DNA of 64,000 nt from an uncultured Nitrospiraceae bacterium (lineage in GTDB: Bacteria > Nitrospirota > Thermodesulfovibrionia > Thermodesulfovibrionales > Thermodesulfovibrionaceae). Below, one piece after another: positions 5,436 through 64,000 of this stretch (positions within the stretch are counted from its first letter, which is position 1; each line of letters starts with the position of its first letter). The notes beneath the pieces are model-generated. The model saw only the letters and a program-made list of their open reading frames with translations, did no database searches and had not been told where the DNA came from. Location of the stretch: contig CAKZQH010000011.1 in assembly GCA_937139565.1 (NCBI GenBank), forward strand, positions 1 to 64,000, written 5' to 3'. The position numbers and the translations under genes are program-made.

Positions 5436-6755
5436 TCAATCAATTCTTAAATCTATCATATGAACTGAACAGGAAATGCAGGGATCATAAGCACGAACAA
5501 GCATTTCTAAGGCAAGGGTTATCTCTTCTTCACTTTTATCCATAATCTTTGGTATCAAATCAACCATATCAAGCTCTATATTATGGGTGTTCTGGTTTGT
5601 AGGGATTACACAGTTTGCACCAGTAATTATTCCTCTTTCATCGCACTCATAATGGTGAATAAGAAGTCCCCTTGGAACTTCAACGGCACCAACGCCCTCG
5701 CCAGCCCTCAAAGGAAAAGCGCCCTTTTGATTTATATCGGGTATAACAATTTCATCATAATTAATTCCTTTTTGCCAAATATTTTCTATTATGCTCTTTG
5801 CATCTTCAATACAGTGAACAGATTCAACTATTTGTGCTACGGTGTTTAAGTAAGGATTTATGCACTTTGGCTTAATATTGAGAGCTGTTGCAGCTTCTTT
5901 TGCCTTTGGGTGTAGTTTTTCATAGTTGAGATTAAATCTTGCTAAAGCTCCTACTGCGTAGGACTCCCTATGCCATTTAGTTCTCTTTGCAGATGCATGG
6001 GGAACAACAAATTCATTTACAACAACTTTATAGTCGTATTTGCTTACTCTATAACCATCGGTGGAACCAATGTCTCCATATAAAAGCGGATACTCTTTTT
6101 CATCGTTTATAAGTCCAACATATTCAGTGTCTCGCTCAAATTCAGGAAAACGAAGACTTGCAAAAAGTTCAACCGTGTCCTCCATATCTTTTTCAAGCTC
6201 CACAAGCTTTCCATGCATTTGTTCAAGGTCTTGAGTAGATGGAAGCTTACTAAATCCTCCTATTACTGCAGAGATAGGATGGACATGTCTTCCTACAAGT
6301 ATGTCACAAAGTTCGTTGCACAATCTTTTCATTTTTAATGCTCTCTTTACGACATTTAGATGGCTTTTTACGAGAGGTACAAAGCTTGGAACACCGAGGA
6401 GATCGGGTGCCACAAGGAGGTAAATATGAAGAATATGGCTGTCTAATTCTTCATAGTGAAGAAGAAGCTTTCGAAGAAGAGTAGTTTGCTCTGTGGGCTT
6501 TATACCAAGAGCATCCTCTGCAGCTTGTATTGATGCAAGAGTATGTCCGCATGAACATATTCCGCATATTCGGCAAGTGATGTGTGGAGCCTCAAAGATT
6601 GATCTACCTCGTAAAAATGCTTCAAAAAATCGAGGTGATTCAACAATCTCTAACTTACACTCATCAAGTTTTCCGTCTTTAATCTTAACAACTATATTTC
6701 CATGTCCTTCAACACGGGTAAGATAATTAACATTTATGTTTACATTCCTGCTCAC
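5436..6755 (-). CDS. hydA: NiFe sulfhydrogenase alpha (large, catalytic) subunit, group 3b type
   Basis: L1 motif RICGICSCGH and L2 motif DPCISCSVH; next to beta/gamma/delta subunits. Confidence 0.93.
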   Translation of the reverse strand: MSRNVNINVNYLTRVEGHGNIVVKIKDGKLDECKLEIVESPRFFEAFLRGRSIFEAPHITCRICGICSCGHTLASIQAAEDALGIKPTEQTTLLRKLLLHYEELDSHILHIYLLVAPDLLGVPSFVPLVKSHLNVVKRALKMKRLCNELCDILVGRHVHPISAVIGGFSKLPSTQDLEQMHGKLVELEKDMEDTVELFASLRFPEFERDTEYVGLINDEKEYPLLYGDIGSTDGYRVSKYDYKVVVNEFVVPHASAKRTKWHRESYAVGALARFNLNYEKLHPKAKEAATALNIKPKCINPYLNTVAQIVESVHCIEDAKSIIENIWQKGINYDEIVIPDINQKGAFPLRAGEGVGAVEVPRGLLIHHYECDERGIITGANCVIPTNQNTHNIELDMVDLIPKIMDKSEEEITLALEMLVRAYDPCISCSVHMIDLRID

Positions 6756-7498
6756 GACTCATCAAGCTCCTTACACTTGTTATACATTTCAATTTTTTTC
6801 ATTAAAAAATCCTCTGGTATGCCAAATTTCTTAAGTACATCCTTAAAACCTTGGCTATTTGGATTTATTGTAAGTCCTCGGCAGCCATAGCATATATTGC
6901 CATTATTAATGCACCAGGAGTTACAACCAGCTTTTGTAACAGGTCCCATACAGGTAAGTCCTCTGTCATACATACACACATTTTCATTTAGCTTACACTC
7001 TACGCACACAGGATATTCAGGAACATAATAGGGAAGCCCCTTGAGAATACATTTCAAGACAGTGAGAAACTCGGGCTGATAAATTGGACAGCCATTTATA
7101 AAATAATCAACCCTAACTACTTGATGCACTGCTTTAGTGTGAATGGTTGGGAAAAATTTATAGGCTTCACCATAAACATATCTTCCTGCTTCTTCAAGGT
7201 TAAAGGAATTTTTCATTCCATTTACTCCACCGATTGTAGCACATGAGCCAAGGGCAACAAGGATTTTACTTTTTTCACGAATCTTTTTCACTCTCTCTAC
7301 AGCATGTTCATCGGTAATGCTACCTTCTATAAAGGAAACATCAAACTCACCATCCCATTTTTCAGACATCACTTCTCTAAACTCAACTATGTCAACAATA
7401 TCAATGAGGTCAAGAACCATCTCTCCAAGATTTGCCACCTGTAATTGGCAACCTTCACAACAGGCAAAATCAAAAAAGGCAACCTTTGGTTTGCTCAT
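6752..7498 (-). CDS. hydD: NiFe sulfhydrogenase delta (small) subunit
   Basis: CCEGCQLQ proximal-cluster motif, GSCATIGG, GCPIYQPE; overlaps hydA by 4 bp. Confidence 0.92.
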   Translation of the reverse strand: MSKPKVAFFDFACCEGCQLQVANLGEMVLDLIDIVDIVEFREVMSEKWDGEFDVSFIEGSITDEHAVERVKKIREKSKILVALGSCATIGGVNGMKNSFNLEEAGRYVYGEAYKFFPTIHTKAVHQVVRVDYFINGCPIYQPEFLTVLKCILKGLPYYVPEYPVCVECKLNENVCMYDRGLTCMGPVTKAGCNSWCINNGNICYGCRGLTINPNSQGFKDVLKKFGIPEDFLMKKIEMYNKCKELDES

Positions 7499-8334
7499 TA
7501 TAATGCCTCTGCCATATCCATTATTTCTTTAAATGTAAAAACAGGACCATCCTTACAGCAGTATAAATTTTGAATCTGACAGCGTCCGCATTTTCCCATT
7601 CCGCATTTCATATGCCTTTCAAAAGAAAGCAGTATTTGATCTACTGGTAAGCCCTTTGTAAGAAGCTCTTTTATCACAAATTTGTACATTACAGGAGGTC
7701 CAACCACAGCCGCATAGGTTCTTATTGGGTCTATATCAACGCCTGGAATAAGGGATGTAATTAATCCAACATTTCCCTTCCAATCGGGGTCTGCTCTGTC
7801 TACTGTGCAAGCAAAATGGATATCAAGTCTCTTGCTCCATTCATCAATTTCGTCGCTAAAGAGCAACTCGCCAGGAGTCTTACAACCAAAAAGAATGTGT
7901 ATTTCACCAAAGTCTCGACGATTATCTATGGCATATAGAATAAGAGAGCGAAGAGGAGCAATGCCTAAGCCACCAGCAATTATTAGTAAATCGTGGCCTT
8001 CTATTAACTTGATTGGAAAGCCATTTCCATAGGGTCCACGAACTCCAATAACATCTCCAGCTTTGAGCTTATGTAATGAATTGGTAACTTTTCCAACAGC
8101 CCTAACACATATCTCAAAATAGTGTCTGTTTAACGGAGAAGAACACACTGAAACAGGTATCTCTCCAATTCCCATTAAAGAAACCATAATGAACTGGCCT
8201 GGCTCAAAATCAAGCCATGTTTTATCCTCAAAAACAAGCTTAAACAGTTTTTCCTTTTCAGTTTGGGTTTTTACTTCAAGAATTCGAGCTCTTTTTAGAT
8301 TATATGGAGAGTCCTTTATAACCACTTTCGCCAT
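7498..8334 (-). CDS. hydG: Sulfhydrogenase gamma subunit (FAD/NAD(P)-binding, 2Fe-2S)
   Basis: Ferredoxin-reductase fold (GVRGPYGNGFP, IAGGLGIAPLRSL) and C-terminal CGMGKCGRCQIQNLYCCKDGP. The internal ATG at 8334 (MAKVVIKDS) is a better start than the ORF-track start at 8421, which overlaps hydB. Confidence 0.9.
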   Translation of the reverse strand: MAKVVIKDSPYNLKRARILEVKTQTEKEKLFKLVFEDKTWLDFEPGQFIMVSLMGIGEIPVSVCSSPLNRHYFEICVRAVGKVTNSLHKLKAGDVIGVRGPYGNGFPIKLIEGHDLLIIAGGLGIAPLRSLILYAIDNRRDFGEIHILFGCKTPGELLFSDEIDEWSKRLDIHFACTVDRADPDWKGNVGLITSLIPGVDIDPIRTYAAVVGPPVMYKFVIKELLTKGLPVDQILLSFERHMKCGMGKCGRCQIQNLYCCKDGPVFTFKEIMDMAEAL

Positions 8335-9383
8335 ATCTTTGCCTCTGATTCTCTTATGAGTGATGTTAGCACTTCCTTTAAGTTTATTCCTGCCATACAG
8401 GTGCGGGAACATCTTCCACAACCTGTGCAGAAAATCATTCCATATCTGTCTATATGATATCTAAATTTTCTATAAAATCTGTGTCTTTGTCTGGCAGAGC
8501 GTTCTCTTCTAAAATCTATGCCACCCGCAACTTTTGCAAACGGATCAAGTTGACAGGAAAACCACACTCTGTATCTTTCTCCTCTTTTTAGAGAAAGTTC
8601 AACATCTTCTTTTATGTCAAAACAGTAGCAGGTAGGACAAACAGCCGTGCAATTGCCGCAACTTAGACATTTACTTTCCAGTTCCTGCCATACGGTTGCA
8701 TTAAAGGAACGGTCAAAAAGATCAGGGATATATCTTCTTTCTGTAGGGATTTCATTGTTAAATACTTTAAGCTTATTATTTCTGAGTATTTTAAGTTCTT
8801 CAATTGTGTTTTGATCTGCTCCTTTAAACATCTCTGTTTTTTCGACTATTTCCATTCCCTTTGAGGAGTGAACATGAACAATAAAATGCTCGCTAAGCTC
8901 GGTAAACATTAAATCATAACCTGTGGTAGGTATGTGAGCTCCTACAAAGGAGCAACTTGCATAATCGTCACAGTAATTATTACACTCGATCCCTATAATA
9001 GTAATGTGCTTTTTTCTTATAAGATAGGCTGTATCCTTGGGCCTGTCAGATAAAACCATATTAAGACATTTTATTCCAGCTATATCACAGGTATGCACAC
9101 CAAAAAGAACAAGATTTTCATACTCTGTAACAGGTTCAACCTTGAGTTCATCTCCTAATTCGAATTCAAGTATGGTTTCTTTTTTAGGAAGAAAGTATTT
9201 CTTTGGTGGAAGTATTGTTGGGATGTAATTTAATCTTACCTCATCAGCGGTTCTTATTTGTTCAAAAGCAAAATTATTAAAACCTTTTTCAACTGGCGCT
9301 ACTACATTGTAAATTGAAATCAACTTGTTAAGAAATTCTTTAATGCGAGATTTTTCAATTAGTCTATATTGTTCAATTTTCAT
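8316..9383 (-). CDS. hydB: Sulfhydrogenase beta subunit (4Fe-4S)
   Basis: CLSCGNCTAVCPTCYC and CTGCGRCSRTCMAGI cluster motifs; first gene of the hydB-G-D-A order. Confidence 0.9.
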   Translation of the reverse strand: MKIEQYRLIEKSRIKEFLNKLISIYNVVAPVEKGFNNFAFEQIRTADEVRLNYIPTILPPKKYFLPKKETILEFELGDELKVEPVTEYENLVLFGVHTCDIAGIKCLNMVLSDRPKDTAYLIRKKHITIIGIECNNYCDDYASCSFVGAHIPTTGYDLMFTELSEHFIVHVHSSKGMEIVEKTEMFKGADQNTIEELKILRNNKLKVFNNEIPTERRYIPDLFDRSFNATVWQELESKCLSCGNCTAVCPTCYCFDIKEDVELSLKRGERYRVWFSCQLDPFAKVAGGIDFRRERSARQRHRFYRKFRYHIDRYGMIFCTGCGRCSRTCMAGINLKEVLTSLIRESEAKIWRKWL

Positions 9384-9512: not shown

Positions 9513-11096
9513 TTATCCAAGAAGGATTTTTTGAGCTTCGTCCATATCAGCTTCCATTACATATGGAATGCCTGTCACCTCAGCTGCTTCTTTTGTCAGA
9601 CAGAATATGTCGTTTCTGTCAATGTATTCGATTGAGAACTTTCTTGCTCCTGCCATTAGTTGCTTGAGTCCGAGAATGAGCCTGTCAACAAAGGTGTACA
9701 TGGCAATAGCACCCCAGGGAAGCTTTTTAAATGCTTTTCCGTACTTATTTTTAAGAACTTCAGCGGTAATGAATATTTCTTCAACAGAGTTTCCATATTT
9801 CTGTATATCCGCAGGAAGTTTTCCATCTTCAAACCATTTTTGAATGTTCTTACCAACGAATGCAGGGATCATTAAAGCTCTTCCCATGCAGACAGCCTTG
9901 AAATAGGGAGCTCCTAAAGCAAGTGCTTTAAAGATATGGTCTTCAAGAGAAAATCCTCCTGCAATTGCAAGATCAGGAACATACTTTTTCTTATCTGCCA
10001 GTTGTTTGGCAAATTTGTATGCAATTGCCTGTAGATAAAGGGTAGGAATTCCCCATTCATTCATCATTCTCCATGGGCTCATTCCTGTTCCTCCACCTGC
10101 ACCATCAATTGTAACAAGATCAATTCCTGCATCAGAGGCAAATCTTAAGGCTCTTGCGAGGTCAGTAATTCTGTAAGCACCTGTTTTTAAGGATACAAAC
10201 TTTGCACCAGCTTTTCTGTAATGTTTTACTGATTTTTCAAAACTCTCATAGTCAACCATGCCAAGCCTTGAGTGTCTTTCAAATTCTTTAAAATCTCCGT
10301 TTTTAAATGCCTTCTGAACTACTGGATCTTCAGGATCAGGAAGCACGATATAGCCTCTTCTTTTTAACTCAAGGGCTCTATCCAAACTCTTTAGTTTTAC
10401 CTCTCCTCCGATATCCTTTGCACCCTGTCCCCATTTAAGCTCAATGCAGGTTACGCCTAACTTATCAATAGCGTACTCTGCAGAGGAAAGTCTGGTGTCT
10501 TCCACATTCTGCTGTAGGATTATCTCTCCATAACCATCATACCAGTCTTTGAAGCATCTTACTCTTCTTTCAAGCTCAGGAGACTTGGTCACCTTTCCTT
10601 TTTTATCGAACTCAGCTTTTGGATCCATACCAACAACATTTTCACCAATGACGACCATGATTCCAGAAATAGCTGCACCTATTGCAAGTCCTTCCCAGTT
10701 ATCTTTTGCAATGTCTGTTGATCCGAGAGCACCTGTAAATATGGGAATGCGAAGTTTAATTTTGTAATCCTTACCTATTTCCCTTTCCACATTAACAGCA
10801 GGAAAAGTTGCCTTGTCAGGATCAGGTTCAATACCAACAGCTCCTACACAGGTTCCTTGAATGTTAATGTGAGAGTAGTCAACAGGATACTTCTTTGTTG
10901 CTCCAGCTGTAACCTTTCCAAAAGGTCCGGGATATATTACCTCACGACCTCTAAATGAAGATTTTCCGATTTCACAAAATCCCGGACATCCATCAAGACA
11001 AACTGAGCAGATTCCCGAATATGGTGCAGGATCTGCTACTCTGTTACGAGTTCCTGTTGCTGAACTTGCATTTGGTAAACCTGGAAATACGTTCAT
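9513..11096 (-). CDS. Stand-alone FMN-binding glutamate synthase domain protein (archaeal-type GltB2)
   Basis: GGGTGMSPWRMMNEWGIPT flavin/TIM-barrel core; N-terminal Cys-rich CSVCLDGCPGFCEIG. Confidence 0.9.
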   Translation of the reverse strand: MNVFPGLPNASSATGTRNRVADPAPYSGICSVCLDGCPGFCEIGKSSFRGREVIYPGPFGKVTAGATKKYPVDYSHINIQGTCVGAVGIEPDPDKATFPAVNVEREIGKDYKIKLRIPIFTGALGSTDIAKDNWEGLAIGAAISGIMVVIGENVVGMDPKAEFDKKGKVTKSPELERRVRCFKDWYDGYGEIILQQNVEDTRLSSAEYAIDKLGVTCIELKWGQGAKDIGGEVKLKSLDRALELKRRGYIVLPDPEDPVVQKAFKNGDFKEFERHSRLGMVDYESFEKSVKHYRKAGAKFVSLKTGAYRITDLARALRFASDAGIDLVTIDGAGGGTGMSPWRMMNEWGIPTLYLQAIAYKFAKQLADKKKYVPDLAIAGGFSLEDHIFKALALGAPYFKAVCMGRALMIPAFVGKNIQKWFEDGKLPADIQKYGNSVEEIFITAEVLKNKYGKAFKKLPWGAIAMYTFVDRLILGLKQLMAGARKFSIEYIDRNDIFCLTKEAAEVTGIPYVMEADMDEAQKILLG

Positions 11097-11127: not shown

Positions 11128-11156
11128 ATGAGTTAAATTAAGTATTAATAACTCAT
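11128..11156. promoter_or_regulatory. Inverted repeat, candidate operator upstream of the glutamate synthase gene
   Basis: ATGAGTTA-N13-TAACTCAT, 8-bp perfect arms in the intergenic region. Confidence 0.45.
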
Positions 11157-11158
11157 TT

Positions 11159-11190
11159 GGGCAAAAAAATATCCATGATATTTTTTACCC
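11159..11190. repeat. Near-perfect inverted repeat between regulator gene and glutamate synthase (terminator or operator)
   Basis: GGGCAAAAAAATATC-CAT-GATATTTTTTACCC. Confidence 0.55.
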
Positions 11191-11206: not shown

Positions 11207-12466
11207 TTACTTGCTAATTAACAAAATTTCTGCTTCATCACCTCCTTTGTTTTCCCACCTTTCAGGTAGGTTTTTTTTCAAATAAAGAAAATCTCCTTCT
11301 TTAAGAAGATAGGAAAAATCATGGGTTTTTACTGTAATAAGGCCTTTAACTAAAAATATGATTTCAGGTTCTTTTTTTGTTAAAAAATGTCCATTTGAAA
11401 CGCAATTAGCTGGTATTTTTAAATAGTAAGCCTTAAAATTATCATCGCTGAAAATTTTATAGATATTAAATTTAGAAAATTTTTGATGTGACCTTGCAGT
11501 TAATTCTTCCTTTTTAATAACCATTTCCTGTTTAAGAGAATTCTCACTTAAAACCTCACCTGGCTTAATACCCAGGGCTTCACATATTTGAACAAAAGAG
11601 GAGATAGAAGGCACTATTTGATTATTTTCCATCTGGGATATAAAACCTGCTGTTAGGTTTACCTTTTCAGCAAGTTCTTTCTGGCTCATGTTTCGGGAAA
11701 TCCTTATTTCCCTGAGTCTGCTTCCAATATCTATTGAATGACTTTGCTCTAATAGGCTAATTTCTATATTTTCATCAGCAGAAATCTCATAAATGTGTGG
11801 CTTAAAGGCATCGCGATTTTTTCTTCTTGCGAGCTTAAGTGCTTTAATAAAAAAGTTCTCCTTTCTGGTGTATAATTCAAAAACCAGCTGTGTTACATGT
11901 CTTATATTCGCCTTAAATTTCTGACTATGGGCATCTCTTTCCAAAATCCAGTATGCTACACTTTCCACATCAAAAAGTCTAGGGCACATATAGGTAAAAA
12001 AGCTGTAGGTTAAATTTTCATCTTTTAAGAGGTCCTGCAGTCCGGTAAGGCTATCAAAAACATATGCCGTTGGCGTTGAAATTTTATTTTCAAGATGAGC
12101 TATAGCACCTGAGAGCTCTTCAAGATTTGACGGATTATTAATTTTCACTATATCGAAATCCTTTCTAAACTCTTCGTAAGCCTTTAAAAAAGTACTGTCG
12201 TTTTTACCCTTTCCTGATGTAAAACAGTCAATAATGTGAAAATTTTCGTTGATATTTCTTTTTAATTCCTTTATAAGGGTAGGTATGGATTTGTTAAAAC
12301 TGACATAAACTACATCTCTTTTTTGTCTCAGGAAAGAATCAATAAATTTTTTAATAAAAATCTCATAGGAAGTTCCTGCATCAACTTCCCATACCACATT
12401 GTCGCCAAGATAGATATAATCAATTAATCTATCAAGGCTTTCTATGCCTGAAGATACCTTTTGCAC
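11207..12466 (-). CDS. KaiC/RecA-like (degenerate P-loop) - XRE HTH - cupin fusion transcriptional regulator
   Basis: N-term GIESLDRLIDYI...VFDSLTGLQDLL (KaiC-like); middle IGSRLREIRISRNMSQKELAEKVNLTAGFISQMENNQIVPS (XRE HTH); C-term cupin. GTG start. Confidence 0.85.
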   Translation of the reverse strand: MQKVSSGIESLDRLIDYIYLGDNVVWEVDAGTSYEIFIKKFIDSFLRQKRDVVYVSFNKSIPTLIKELKRNINENFHIIDCFTSGKGKNDSTFLKAYEEFRKDFDIVKINNPSNLEELSGAIAHLENKISTPTAYVFDSLTGLQDLLKDENLTYSFFTYMCPRLFDVESVAYWILERDAHSQKFKANIRHVTQLVFELYTRKENFFIKALKLARRKNRDAFKPHIYEISADENIEISLLEQSHSIDIGSRLREIRISRNMSQKELAEKVNLTAGFISQMENNQIVPSISSFVQICEALGIKPGEVLSENSLKQEMVIKKEELTARSHQKFSKFNIYKIFSDDNFKAYYLKIPANCVSNGHFLTKKEPEIIFLVKGLITVKTHDFSYLLKEGDFLYLKKNLPERWENKGGDEAEILLISK

Positions 12467-12480
12467 GGTAAACGGTTACC
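12467..12480. promoter_or_regulatory. Palindrome abutting the regulator start codon (candidate auto-operator)
   Basis: GGTAAACGGTTACC; 6 of 7 positions symmetric; adjacent to the GTG start codon at 12466. Confidence 0.45.
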
Positions 12481-12875
12481 TCTTAAAGTTCAATTTTAAG
12501 TGGAGATTTCCTTTTTTGTCAAGTAAATTAATTGTATAAGAAATTCTCACTTAGGGATTTTTAGAAGATGTCAGATTTTTTTGGTGATGCCGAGGGTGTT
12601 GCCGATCGGGGAAGCCTCTGATTTTCCCTAACTTTACACTGCTAAATACTACAAATAAGTCTGTATAGATCTTTTTTATAGGTTTACAATGGCAAATGGA
12701 AAGGTATACCTCTTACTCTCAAGAATTCTACTTGAATTCCGATATGCGTCTATATGATGGATGAGGACGTCTTTCCTCAAAAATAAATCTACCTGAAATA
12801 GTATAGGGTTTACAAATAGAATTTCTTCCTTTTCTATATGAGCTTCTTAAAGAGGAGGGGAGATTCCTCGCTTAC

Positions 12876-13520: not shown

Positions 13521-16514
13521 GTGAAAAATAATAGCAATAAATCAAAACATAGCGAAATCCTACAGAAACTAAAAGACCACTTGAAAGTCCTTTTCCAGTT
13601 TGATTGTACAGACCTTGATTTTGGCATCTATCGCATAATGAATTACAAGAGAAAGGAGATAGAAAAGTTTATTGAGGAAGACCTCATAGGATTGGTGGAA
13701 AAGGAGTTTGAGAGATATAAGACTCAAAATCAGAAAGAATTATCAGAAAAGATTGAAGAAAAGAGAAAGGAGATACAACGACTTGAAAAAGACCTTGGTG
13801 AGAAGATTCTAAAAAATGGAGAAATTGAGGAAAAATTTAGAGATAGACCTTTTGCTAAAGAGTATCTTGAACTCAAAAGACAGATTGAAGATATAGACAT
13901 CACAGAAAGCATCCAGACACAAGTTTTCAATGACCTTTATAGTTTCTTCTCAAGATACTATGAAGATGGGGACTTTATTTCAAAGAGGAGATATTCCTCT
14001 AAGAACTATAAATATGCAATTCCTTACAATGGGGAAGAAGTAAAACTCTACTGGGCAAACTTTGACCAGTATTACATTAAGACAGGTGAGGTTTTTAAAG
14101 ATTATGAATTCAATCATAAAGGTTGGAGATTTATATTTAGAACTGTCCTTGCAGATGTGCCTGTGGGAAATGTTAAGGGCAGTAGAAGATACTTCTTTCT
14201 CTCACAAGATGAGCCAATTGAGATTTCAAACAACACCTGCCTGATAAAATTTGAATACAGACCATTAACTGATGAAGATTTAAAACAATATCCTGTAAAA
14301 ACCAAAGAAGACAAAGAAAAGACCTCAGGAATAACACAGGATGATTTAAATGCTATTTTGAAGGATAAGATCCTTGAGCAAATAAACACCATTGAACCAA
14401 AAGCCATTTTAAATGAAAAACAGGATGAAAAGACAATCCTTGAAAAACACCTCCATAGATTTACCCGCAAAATTACGAGTGATTTCTTTATCCACAAAGA
14501 TCTTAAAGGATTTCTTGAAAGGGAACTTGATTACTTTATAAAGACAGAGGTTTTAGATATTGAAAGTTTTGATACAGAAAAAGAGAGATATTTTGACCGT
14601 CACCTCACAAGGGCAAAGGTGGTAAAAAGCATTGGAAATAGAACAATTGAATTTTTAGCTCAGATTGAAGATTTTCAGAAAATGCTCTGGGAAAAGAAGA
14701 AGTTTGTGCTTAAGACCGACTATGTTATCACTCTTGACCTCATACCAGAAGAGTTTCATAAAGAGATTTTAAAAAACAAAGAGCAACTAAAAGAATGGGA
14801 GGATTTGGGGTTTGGAGAGATTAAAACAAGGGATAACTTAAACAGCAAAAAGCTGCCTGTAGATACAAAGTATTTTAGTGAAGAATTTAAAGAGAGATTG
14901 CTTGAAAAATTAGGAGAAAAAGGAAACATTGACGATTTGCTTGATGGAGTGCTCGTAAAAAGCGAAAACTGGCAGGCATTGAATTTTCTTCTTGAGAAGT
15001 ATAAAGAAAAGGTGCAGACAATTTACATTGACCCTCCATTTAATCTCGGCACAAATGCAGATTTTCTATACAAGACAGATTATAAAGATTCATCATGGAT
15101 TACTCTTTTAGAAAATAGATTGTCTTTAGCAAAGAAGATACTAAATGAAAAAGGAAGCATCTTTGTAAGGTGTGACTACAATGGGAATATGTTTGTGAGA
15201 TTGTTGATGAATATGATTTTTGGGGAGGAGAATTTTAGGAATGAGATAGGAGTAAGAAGATTTAAGAAAAATGTAATGGAGAAAGAGATAAACAAATTAC
15301 CAGAAGGTGTTGACACCATTTATATTTATTCGTTAACAGACAAATTTAAATACATCTATCCTTTCAAATCAAAAGGAGAAAAAAGAGAAGGATTCTGGCG
15401 ACATATGGGCGACTCAAGTGGTCAAGGATCTTCAAAAGTATTCTTTGGTAAAGAATTAGCCCCACCCAATGGAAAGCATTGGAAGTATTCGCAAGAGAAA
15501 ATTGATCAAATGATTGAAAGCGGGACATTAATACTTGTTTGTAGTAATTGTGATTATAAGCATGATAAAACGCTGGGGAAATGGAGAGGTTGTCCAAAAT
15601 GTGGTGCAGATAACCCAATACCTAAATATTGGGTAAAAGAACAGGAAAAAGAGGTATTAGACTCTAACTGGACTGATTTATATGGATACTCAACAACATG
15701 GAATTTCCAAACCGAAAACTCCGAAATCCTTCTCAAGCGTGTCATAGAATCCACATCTAATGAAGGCGATTTAGTTATGGACTTCTTCCTCGGTTCAGGC
15801 ACAACCACTGCTGTGGCACATAAACTAAAAAGAAAGTGGCTTGGTGTTGAGATGGGGGATCATTTTGAGACAGTAGTTTTGCCGAGAATGAAGAAGGTTC
15901 TCTTTTATGACAAATCTGGTATCTCAAAGGAGGCTGATGTCAAAGAGAAATACAACGAAAAAACCTCAGGTGGTTTCTTCAAATACCACTACCTTGAGCA
16001 ATACGAAGACACTCTTCACAACATAGAATTTCCACAGGAAGAAAAGGCACAGAGAATGCTTGATCTCTTCACAGAAGATGCAAAAACAGAGTATCTTATG
16101 AAATACATGCTTAAGTTTGAGACCGAGGGGAGCCCTTCACTCTTAAATCTTACTGCATTTGAAAATCCCTATGAATATAAACTAAAGATAATCTCATCAG
16201 GCAAAGGAGAGGAGATTGTAAATGTGGATTTAGTGGAGACATTTAACTATCTCATTGGCCTTAAGATAGGTAGATATAAGTTTTTAAAAGAAAACGGTAG
16301 AAAATATACATTTGTATTTGGAGAGAGGAATAGCAGAAAAACTGCGATTGTCTGGCGTCCTATTCAAGGAATAAACATGGAAAAAGATAGAGAGATAATT
16401 GATAGTGAACTTAAAGAGCTTGACCCTGATGAGATCTTCATAAATGGTGATAGCCTTGTTAAGGATTATAAACCAATTGAGAGTGAGTTTAAAACATTAA
16501 TGGAAGGTGTATAA
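13521..16514 (+). CDS. DNA methyltransferase, type III Mod-like (N6-adenine/beta class) with long N-terminal extension
   Basis: Motif IV DPPFNLG upstream of motif I DFFLGSGTT; a zinc-ribbon-like CSNC...CPKC lies between them; paired with a Res-like gene; GTG start. Confidence 0.9.
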   Translation: MKNNSNKSKHSEILQKLKDHLKVLFQFDCTDLDFGIYRIMNYKRKEIEKFIEEDLIGLVEKEFERYKTQNQKELSEKIEEKRKEIQRLEKDLGEKILKNGEIEEKFRDRPFAKEYLELKRQIEDIDITESIQTQVFNDLYSFFSRYYEDGDFISKRRYSSKNYKYAIPYNGEEVKLYWANFDQYYIKTGEVFKDYEFNHKGWRFIFRTVLADVPVGNVKGSRRYFFLSQDEPIEISNNTCLIKFEYRPLTDEDLKQYPVKTKEDKEKTSGITQDDLNAILKDKILEQINTIEPKAILNEKQDEKTILEKHLHRFTRKITSDFFIHKDLKGFLERELDYFIKTEVLDIESFDTEKERYFDRHLTRAKVVKSIGNRTIEFLAQIEDFQKMLWEKKKFVLKTDYVITLDLIPEEFHKEILKNKEQLKEWEDLGFGEIKTRDNLNSKKLPVDTKYFSEEFKERLLEKLGEKGNIDDLLDGVLVKSENWQALNFLLEKYKEKVQTIYIDPPFNLGTNADFLYKTDYKDSSWITLLENRLSLAKKILNEKGSIFVRCDYNGNMFVRLLMNMIFGEENFRNEIGVRRFKKNVMEKEINKLPEGVDTIYIYSLTDKFKYIYPFKSKGEKREGFWRHMGDSSGQGSSKVFFGKELAPPNGKHWKYSQEKIDQMIESGTLILVCSNCDYKHDKTLGKWRGCPKCGADNPIPKYWVKEQEKEVLDSNWTDLYGYSTTWNFQTENSEILLKRVIESTSNEGDLVMDFFLGSGTTTAVAHKLKRKWLGVEMGDHFETVVLPRMKKVLFYDKSGISKEADVKEKYNEKTSGGFFKYHYLEQYEDTLHNIEFPQEEKAQRMLDLFTEDAKTEYLMKYMLKFETEGSPSLLNLTAFENPYEYKLKIISSGKGEEIVNVDLVETFNYLIGLKIGRYKFLKENGRKYTFVFGERNSRKTAIVWRPIQGINMEKDREIIDSELKELDPDEIFINGDSLVKDYKPIESEFKTLMEGV

Positions 16515-16984: not shown

Positions 16985-17278
16985 ATGAAAAGCCTAAATG
17001 AAATAATAGAAATTCTTAATAAGCATAAAGAAAATTTGAAAGAAAAATATGGTGTTATTGAGATAGGGATTTTTGGCTCTTATGCGAAAGATGCTCAAAA
17101 AGAGTCAAGCGATGTAGATATCCTTGTAGAATTTGAAGCGCCTGTGAGTCTGTTAAAAATTGTCTCACTTGAAAATTATCTTTCGGACCTCATTGGAATT
17201 AAAGTTGATGTTGTTCCCAAAAAAAATATTAGAGTTGAATTAAAGGATGAGATTCTAAGGGAGGCTATTACAATATGA
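16985..17278 (+). CDS. MntA-like minimal nucleotidyltransferase (antitoxin)
   Basis: GSYAKDAQKESSDVD matches the GSx10DxD motif; followed by hepT with ATGA overlap. Confidence 0.92.
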   Translation: MKSLNEIIEILNKHKENLKEKYGVIEIGIFGSYAKDAQKESSDVDILVEFEAPVSLLKIVSLENYLSDLIGIKVDVVPKKNIRVELKDEILREAITI

Positions 17279-17625
17279 GTAAAAGAGAACCCATATTGTA
17301 CATAAAAGATATCCTTGAGTATATGGAAAGGGCTGAAACACATATTGGCAGCATGAAAAAGGAGGAGTTTCTTCAGGATAGTAAAACCTGTGATGCAGTC
17401 ATAAGGTGTATTGAGGTTATTGGTGAGGCAACTAAGAATGTTCCTGATAACATAAGGAATAAATACCCTTCAATTCCCTGGCGTGATATGGCTGGAATGA
17501 GAGATAAGATTATACATGGTTATTTTGTAGTGGATTTTGAAAGTGTCTGGCTTGTGGTAAAAGAGGAAATACCGAAATTAAAGCCATTGATAAATAAGGT
17601 TTTACAAGATTTAAATGAAACTTGA
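17275..17625 (+). CDS. HepT-like (DUF86, HEPN) toxin
   Basis: RDKIIHGY matches the Rx4HxY HEPN RNase motif; immediately follows the MNT gene. Confidence 0.93.
   Translation: MSKREPILYIKDILEYMERAETHIGSMKKEEFLQDSKTCDAVIRCIEVIGEATKNVPDNIRNKYPSIPWRDMAGMRDKIIHGYFVVDFESVWLVVKEEIPKLKPLINKVLQDLNET

Positions 17626-63867: not shown

Positions 63868-64000
<133 letters not shown>

Follow-up and report, generated by a model that had tools for sequence, protein, structure and literature searches.

Genes at the locus

The window, a stretch of 64,000 nucleotides from an uncultured Nitrospiraceae bacterium, contains on its minus strand a gene at positions 11207 to 12466, which starts with GTG and codes for a protein of 419 amino acids. 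The initial annotation of this open reading frame had proposed a KaiC-like domain fused in front of an XRE helix-turn-helix (HTH) and a terminal cupin, and the segments GIESLDRLI, VVYVSFNKS and AYVFDSLTGL, on which the KaiC-like framing was based, were all recovered in the translation. The architecture was confirmed. Residues 1-240 (11747 to 12466, minus strand) were assigned to a pseudo-KaiC domain with a predicted RecA fold by a KaiC profile, PF06745, Foldseek and conservation, residues 246-305 (11552 to 11731, minus strand) form the XRE HTH, and residues from about 330 to 419 (11210 to 11479, minus strand) a degenerate cupin, which is the least conserved part of the family. The HTH is as clear as had been claimed, with a Pfam match of residues 251-304 to HTH_3 at an E-value of 1.1e-13. 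The terminal cupin held as a fold: the C-terminal part was modelled at a pLDDT of 75-92 and matches TM1459-type cupins and 1y9q, an HTH_3 regulator, with many cupins among the fold matches of the model. As a family member it fell short, however, since Cupin_2 over residues 363-417 reached 24.9 bits, just below the Pfam cut-off of 27.2. For the C-terminal half, PuuR was the top-scoring NCBIfam model, and no match to NRD (PF01995) was found in the regulator with Pfam, NrpR being a distinct gene.

Regulators of the XRE-cupin type are common and sense through the cupin (PMC10965056). Like the PuuR, PsdR and DbuR type factors, the protein described here carries an XRE HTH followed by a cupin, and it would share with them a local repressor logic and a palindromic operator of 14-15 bp at its own or neighbouring promoters, here in the form of predicted sites. 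While the typical factor consists of two domains in about 180-200 amino acids with the HTH at the N-terminus, the HTH of the present protein begins at residue 246 of 419, behind the 240-residue pseudo-KaiC domain. Its cupin is weakly conserved and lacks conserved metal ligands, and its predicted targets belong to nitrogen biosynthesis, not to amine or peptide catabolism. Judged from sequence, the regulator is thus a variant of the XRE-cupin regulators with an added pseudo-KaiC domain and, by motif tests, no KaiC ATPase.

A relative of the regulator was identified in 45 of 296 Nitrospirota genomes, spanning several families and classes, so that the fusion noticed in one genome is no one-off. 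Since the same architecture recurs in these genomes and GK[ST] is missing from the P-loop region of every family member, the fusion is not a product of chance. The sole test beyond the Nitrospirota, an insensitive contig scan with a single sequence, gave six loci, in Nitrospirota MAGs and one bacterium. Searches of plasmid, phage and IMG/VR collections with the N-terminal domain returned no relatives, and a mobile or phage family was rejected for these collections.

The partner gene c0 and the nitrogen neighbourhood

Downstream of the regulator on the same strand lies a gene designated c0 (9513 to 11096, minus strand), encoding a stand-alone FMN glutamate-synthase domain protein (PF01645) with an N-terminal CxxCxxxCxxxC motif; no NCBIfam model covers c0. 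The initial annotation had suggested a link to glutamate synthase from this adjacency alone. The link is now supported beyond the single genome by the shared palindrome described below and by a near-obligate co-occurrence, with c0 present in 44 of the 45 regulator genomes compared to 6 of the 251 genomes without a regulator (Fisher 1e-44). In 42 of 43 distinct regulator loci, c0 directly follows the regulator on its strand (40 loci from gene calls, with L046 and L059 added by sequence or search). The exception is G217, which contains the regulator without c0. Among the six genomes with c0 and no regulator, c0 lies at the end of a contig in G067 and has a gap of N upstream in G203, and decayed regulator remnants are present beside it in G083 and G186. 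The G083 remnant (L108) has lost residues 28-298, with promoter and operator intact, and the one in G186 (L110) is a cupin fragment with a stop; these are two separate decays of the regulator, and c0 was retained in both. Many genomes contain two c0 paralogs, often in tandem or split by NrpR, which are about 57-65% and 75-92% identical to c0 of the window (L053, L061, L062, L067, L063, L068, L073, L074).

The other neighbours of the regulator are also nitrogen genes, namely a divergent gltB1-B2-B3 cluster for glutamate synthase, NrpR, PII and glnA, and in some genomes a divergent nifH. On this gene-context evidence, the regulator gene is tied to nitrogen assimilation. NrpR (PF01995) is the nitrogen repressor of methanogens. 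Here, its gene often lies just downstream of the regulator (27 loci); both would act on nitrogen assimilation, but their domains are unrelated and the two coexist in most of these genomes. A role as a mainly nif-specific regulator was rejected, because the association with nifH is weak (22 of 45 regulator genomes compared to 60 of 251 others). In the window, nifH begins at the right edge, at 63919-64000 (G000:C11:63919-64737).

The candidate operator and its predicted targets

A candidate operator, GGTAACCGTTTACC (12467 to 12480, minus strand), abuts the start codon of the regulator and is located 13-26 bp downstream of the -10 box TAAAAT (12493 to 12498, minus strand) of a promoter with the -35 box TTGACA (12517 to 12522, minus strand). 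It is a 14-bp palindrome of the form GGYAA-N4-TTRCC, which, scored with at most 1 mismatch of 10, is present in the 70 bp upstream of the gene at 38 of 43 regulator loci, compared to 0.5% of shuffles; five of the 43 regulators have no recognisable palindrome. In most loci the site abuts the start codon, and in one family variants such as GGCAATGCTTTGCC keep the half-sites unchanged and differ in the centre. The perfect palindrome occurs once in the 2-Mb genome of the window, at the regulator promoter. For PsdR, an XRE-cupin repressor, dimers were described on the palindrome TTAAG-N5-CTTAA, with neighbouring genes being repressed (PMC10965056). A site that lies behind the -10 box and ahead of the start codon is indicative of repression, here also of autorepression, as in repressors of the PsdR type.

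One other good promoter match is present in the genome of the window, GGTAACCATTTGCC, located 15 bp before gltB1 and again behind a TTGACA promoter. This places gltB, which had been named as a possible target, among the targets predicted by sequence, and with a single further promoter site the regulon in this genome would be small. Relatives have further intergenic sites away from the locus, located before gltB1, a second c0, glnA, nrpR, a nifA-like regulator and the sulfhydrogenase beta gene; palindrome matches in coding sequences were set aside as chance. The genus of the window has, after c0, a set of sulfhydrogenase/NAD(P)-hydrogenase-like genes (beta, gamma, delta, alpha; 5436 to 9383, minus strand), and in G140 (L144) the homologue of the beta subunit (ShyB) has a palindrome of its own. 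These genes possibly belong to the same regulon, in which case a supply of reductant driven by H2 may be co-regulated with glutamate synthesis.

As a count of loose palindromes across the phylum was noisy, due to GGCAA-type variants in Nitrospira-type genomes without the regulator, the comparison was made at gltB1. There, 23 of 27 regulator genomes have an upstream site, compared to 9 of 28 genomes without a detectable regulator (Fisher 1e-4). Among these nine are G244, G272, G209 and G052, the last belonging to the genus of the window and consisting of one contig. The sequence link of palindrome and regulator at gltB1 is therefore strong, though not exclusive, and another protein may bind the palindrome. 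It is conceivable that the palindrome belongs altogether to a different, unlinked factor for glutamate synthesis, with the regulator being a member of the regulon that acts at other sites. The sites that persist in genomes without a detectable regulator would be accounted for in this way. However, site presence tracks the regulator, and a site directly at the start codon of the regulator itself, as seen in most loci, is typical of autorepression. In addition, NrpR, the obvious candidate, was ruled out as the sole binder, since G272 and G217 have gltB1 sites but no NrpR, while G186 has NrpR and no site before gltB1. A separate binder is thus considered unlikely.

The pseudo-KaiC domain

The RecA-type fold that had been proposed for the N-terminal domain is supported by several comparisons. 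A profile of 16 family members matches KaiC, SSO2452 and PH0284 in the PDB with E-values down to 5e-6, and 11 of the 16 N-terminal domains reach the Pfam family KaiC (PF06745), with a best E-value of 2.5e-11, while the window protein by itself misses it. The structure prediction agreed in part: Foldseek ranked SSO2452, PH0284 and KaiC at the top, so RecA/KaiC-type folds came first, but the AlphaFold run on 7 sequences gave a pLDDT of only 61 for the whole protein and 57 for the N-terminal domain. The assignment of residues 1-240 to a KaiC/RAD55-type RecA fold therefore leans mainly on the profiles, together with the better-predicted central part. With KaiC/RAD55 proteins (PF06745; SSO2452, PH0284) the domain shares the fold, the GI..LD start, the strand order and the Walker B aspartate, and it differs from them by the absence of Walker A and of the catalytic glutamates and by the fusion to a DNA-binding domain.

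In the profile alignment, KaiC GTSGTGKT is aligned with EVDAGTSYE (residues 27-35; 12362 to 12388, minus strand), the P-loop lysine being replaced by Tyr34 and the threonine by Glu35. This loss of Walker A, noted at first for the window protein, was found to be general among 43 distinct relatives with an intact N-terminus, on which all motif counts are based: none contains GxxxxGK[ST], and position 34 is Y, P, H, F, E or S and never K in all 43. The catalytic EE of KaiC (FEES) is replaced by FN[KR]S, with N58 in 43 of 43 and K/R59 in 40 of 43, while the Walker B aspartate D138 is kept in all. The other invariants comprise G85-K86-G87, D90, FDS-x-TG-x-Q, C161-P, H180-S and H190-x-TQ, and the new invariant residues come after the core strands 1-4 in the low-confidence model.

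The N-terminal domain has a mean identity of 61% with 50 of 240 columns invariant, compared to 62% and 8 of 60 for the HTH and 32% and 3 of 114 for linker and cupin. A domain so conserved must be a working one, though not as a classical ATPase, and by its sequence it is a maintained pseudo-ATPase domain. Its conservation, far above that of the cupin, marks out the pseudo-KaiC domain, rather than the cupin, as the likely reader of a signal or a partner.

What the domain would read can be seen in different ways. It could be a docking scaffold for the c0 flavoprotein, or for PII, and couple the state of the enzyme to DNA binding, as the near-obligate pairing and adjacency with c0 might suggest. 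For the Elp4-6 subunits of Elongator, it was shown that RecA-fold proteins can make a hexameric ring within a larger assembly (PMC11050213). Weak matches to PAXNEB/Elp4 were identified in 13 of 16 family members; Elp4-6 belongs, however, to a eukaryotic tRNA-modification complex, and the likeness consists in the RecA fold, the sequence match being weak. The invariant residues follow strands that in P-loop NTPases form the ligand face, and no evident conserved outer surface is seen in the low-confidence model. In addition, G217 keeps the regulator without c0, so that we regard a scaffold as rather doubtful. An energy sensor, with ATP or another nucleotide still being bound although the P-loop lysine is missing, would fit the invariant Asp138, and the invariant glycine/lysine motif GKGKND could stand in for the P-loop contacts, but since none of the 43 relatives has retained the P-loop lysine or either of the two catalytic glutamates, such a sensor appears improbable. 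That the domain is a vestigial fusion to an ordinary regulator sensing through its cupin, as XRE-cupin regulators commonly do, is very hard to reconcile with an N-terminal domain far more conserved than a cupin in which the usual metal ligands are not conserved across the family.

A proposed mechanism

On balance, we infer that the regulator is probably an autorepressor of ammonium and glutamate assimilation, in which a signal or a partner is read by the pseudo-KaiC domain. Either as a dimer or within a larger ring, the XRE domain would bind GGYAA-N4-TTRCC at a position shortly after the -10 box, both at its own promoter and at gltB1 of the operon for the archaeal-type glutamate synthase; in relatives, a few other nitrogen genes would be bound likewise. 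The binding would block transcription. The KaiC/RAD55-type domain, with P-loop lysine and catalytic glutamates gone, would not hydrolyse ATP, but behind its core strands a remodelled pocket would have been kept with strong conservation. There, the domain might read a metabolite of nitrogen status, with 2-oxoglutarate, glutamate or glutamine as a natural guess, or else a nucleotide that it binds and does not hydrolyse, and set DNA binding accordingly, possibly in the form of a KaiC-like ring. The cupin, with its weak conservation, would serve as an accessory or oligomerisation domain. A wider proposal is more tentative, namely that a new class of transcription factors exists in which a dead KaiC ring senses the nitrogen status and drives XRE control of the archaeal-type glutamate synthase phylum-wide; this is possible rather than probable.

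The component domains are already known, and for their fusion, together with the regulon and the operator, no description was found in Pfam, NCBIfam or the literature searched. Likewise, the literature searched holds no description of the control of glutamate synthesis in Nitrospirota, a phylum which includes sulfate reducers, magnetotactic and hot-spring lineages. Since a regulator, an operator of defined sequence and a few target genes can now be named as candidates, the circuit is directly testable. A RecA/KaiC fold that has stayed under strong selection after the loss of its catalytic residues, joined to a DNA-binding domain, also bears on how motor-like folds turn into sensors or scaffolds.

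Additional features of the locus

Between the regulator and c0, a conserved leader (11128 to 11190, minus strand) consists of a hairpin at 11159-11190, formed by GGGTAAAAAATATC and GATATTTTTTTGCCC, and a second inverted repeat at 11128-11156 which contains AATACTTAA. In most loci (L041-L078), an A/T-rich hairpin or terminator ending in ATTTTTTTTGCC is followed by AATACTTAA, and a second copy of the latter lies ahead of the Shine-Dalgarno sequence. In some clades the first copy is located in the loop of a hairpin, the stem of which varies in sequence between clades. A search of six sources with Rfam identified no known RNA except one tRNA.

Upstream of the regulator, a type III-like DNA methyltransferase (13521-16514) and near it an MNT/HEPN nucleotidyltransferase-like pair of small genes (16985-17625) were recognised by eye. 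In the gltB1 leaders of L048, L057 and L145, a terminator-like hairpin of the form GCGTC..GACGC-TTTTTT is present between operator and start codon, which suggests an additional attenuation of gltB1 in these loci.
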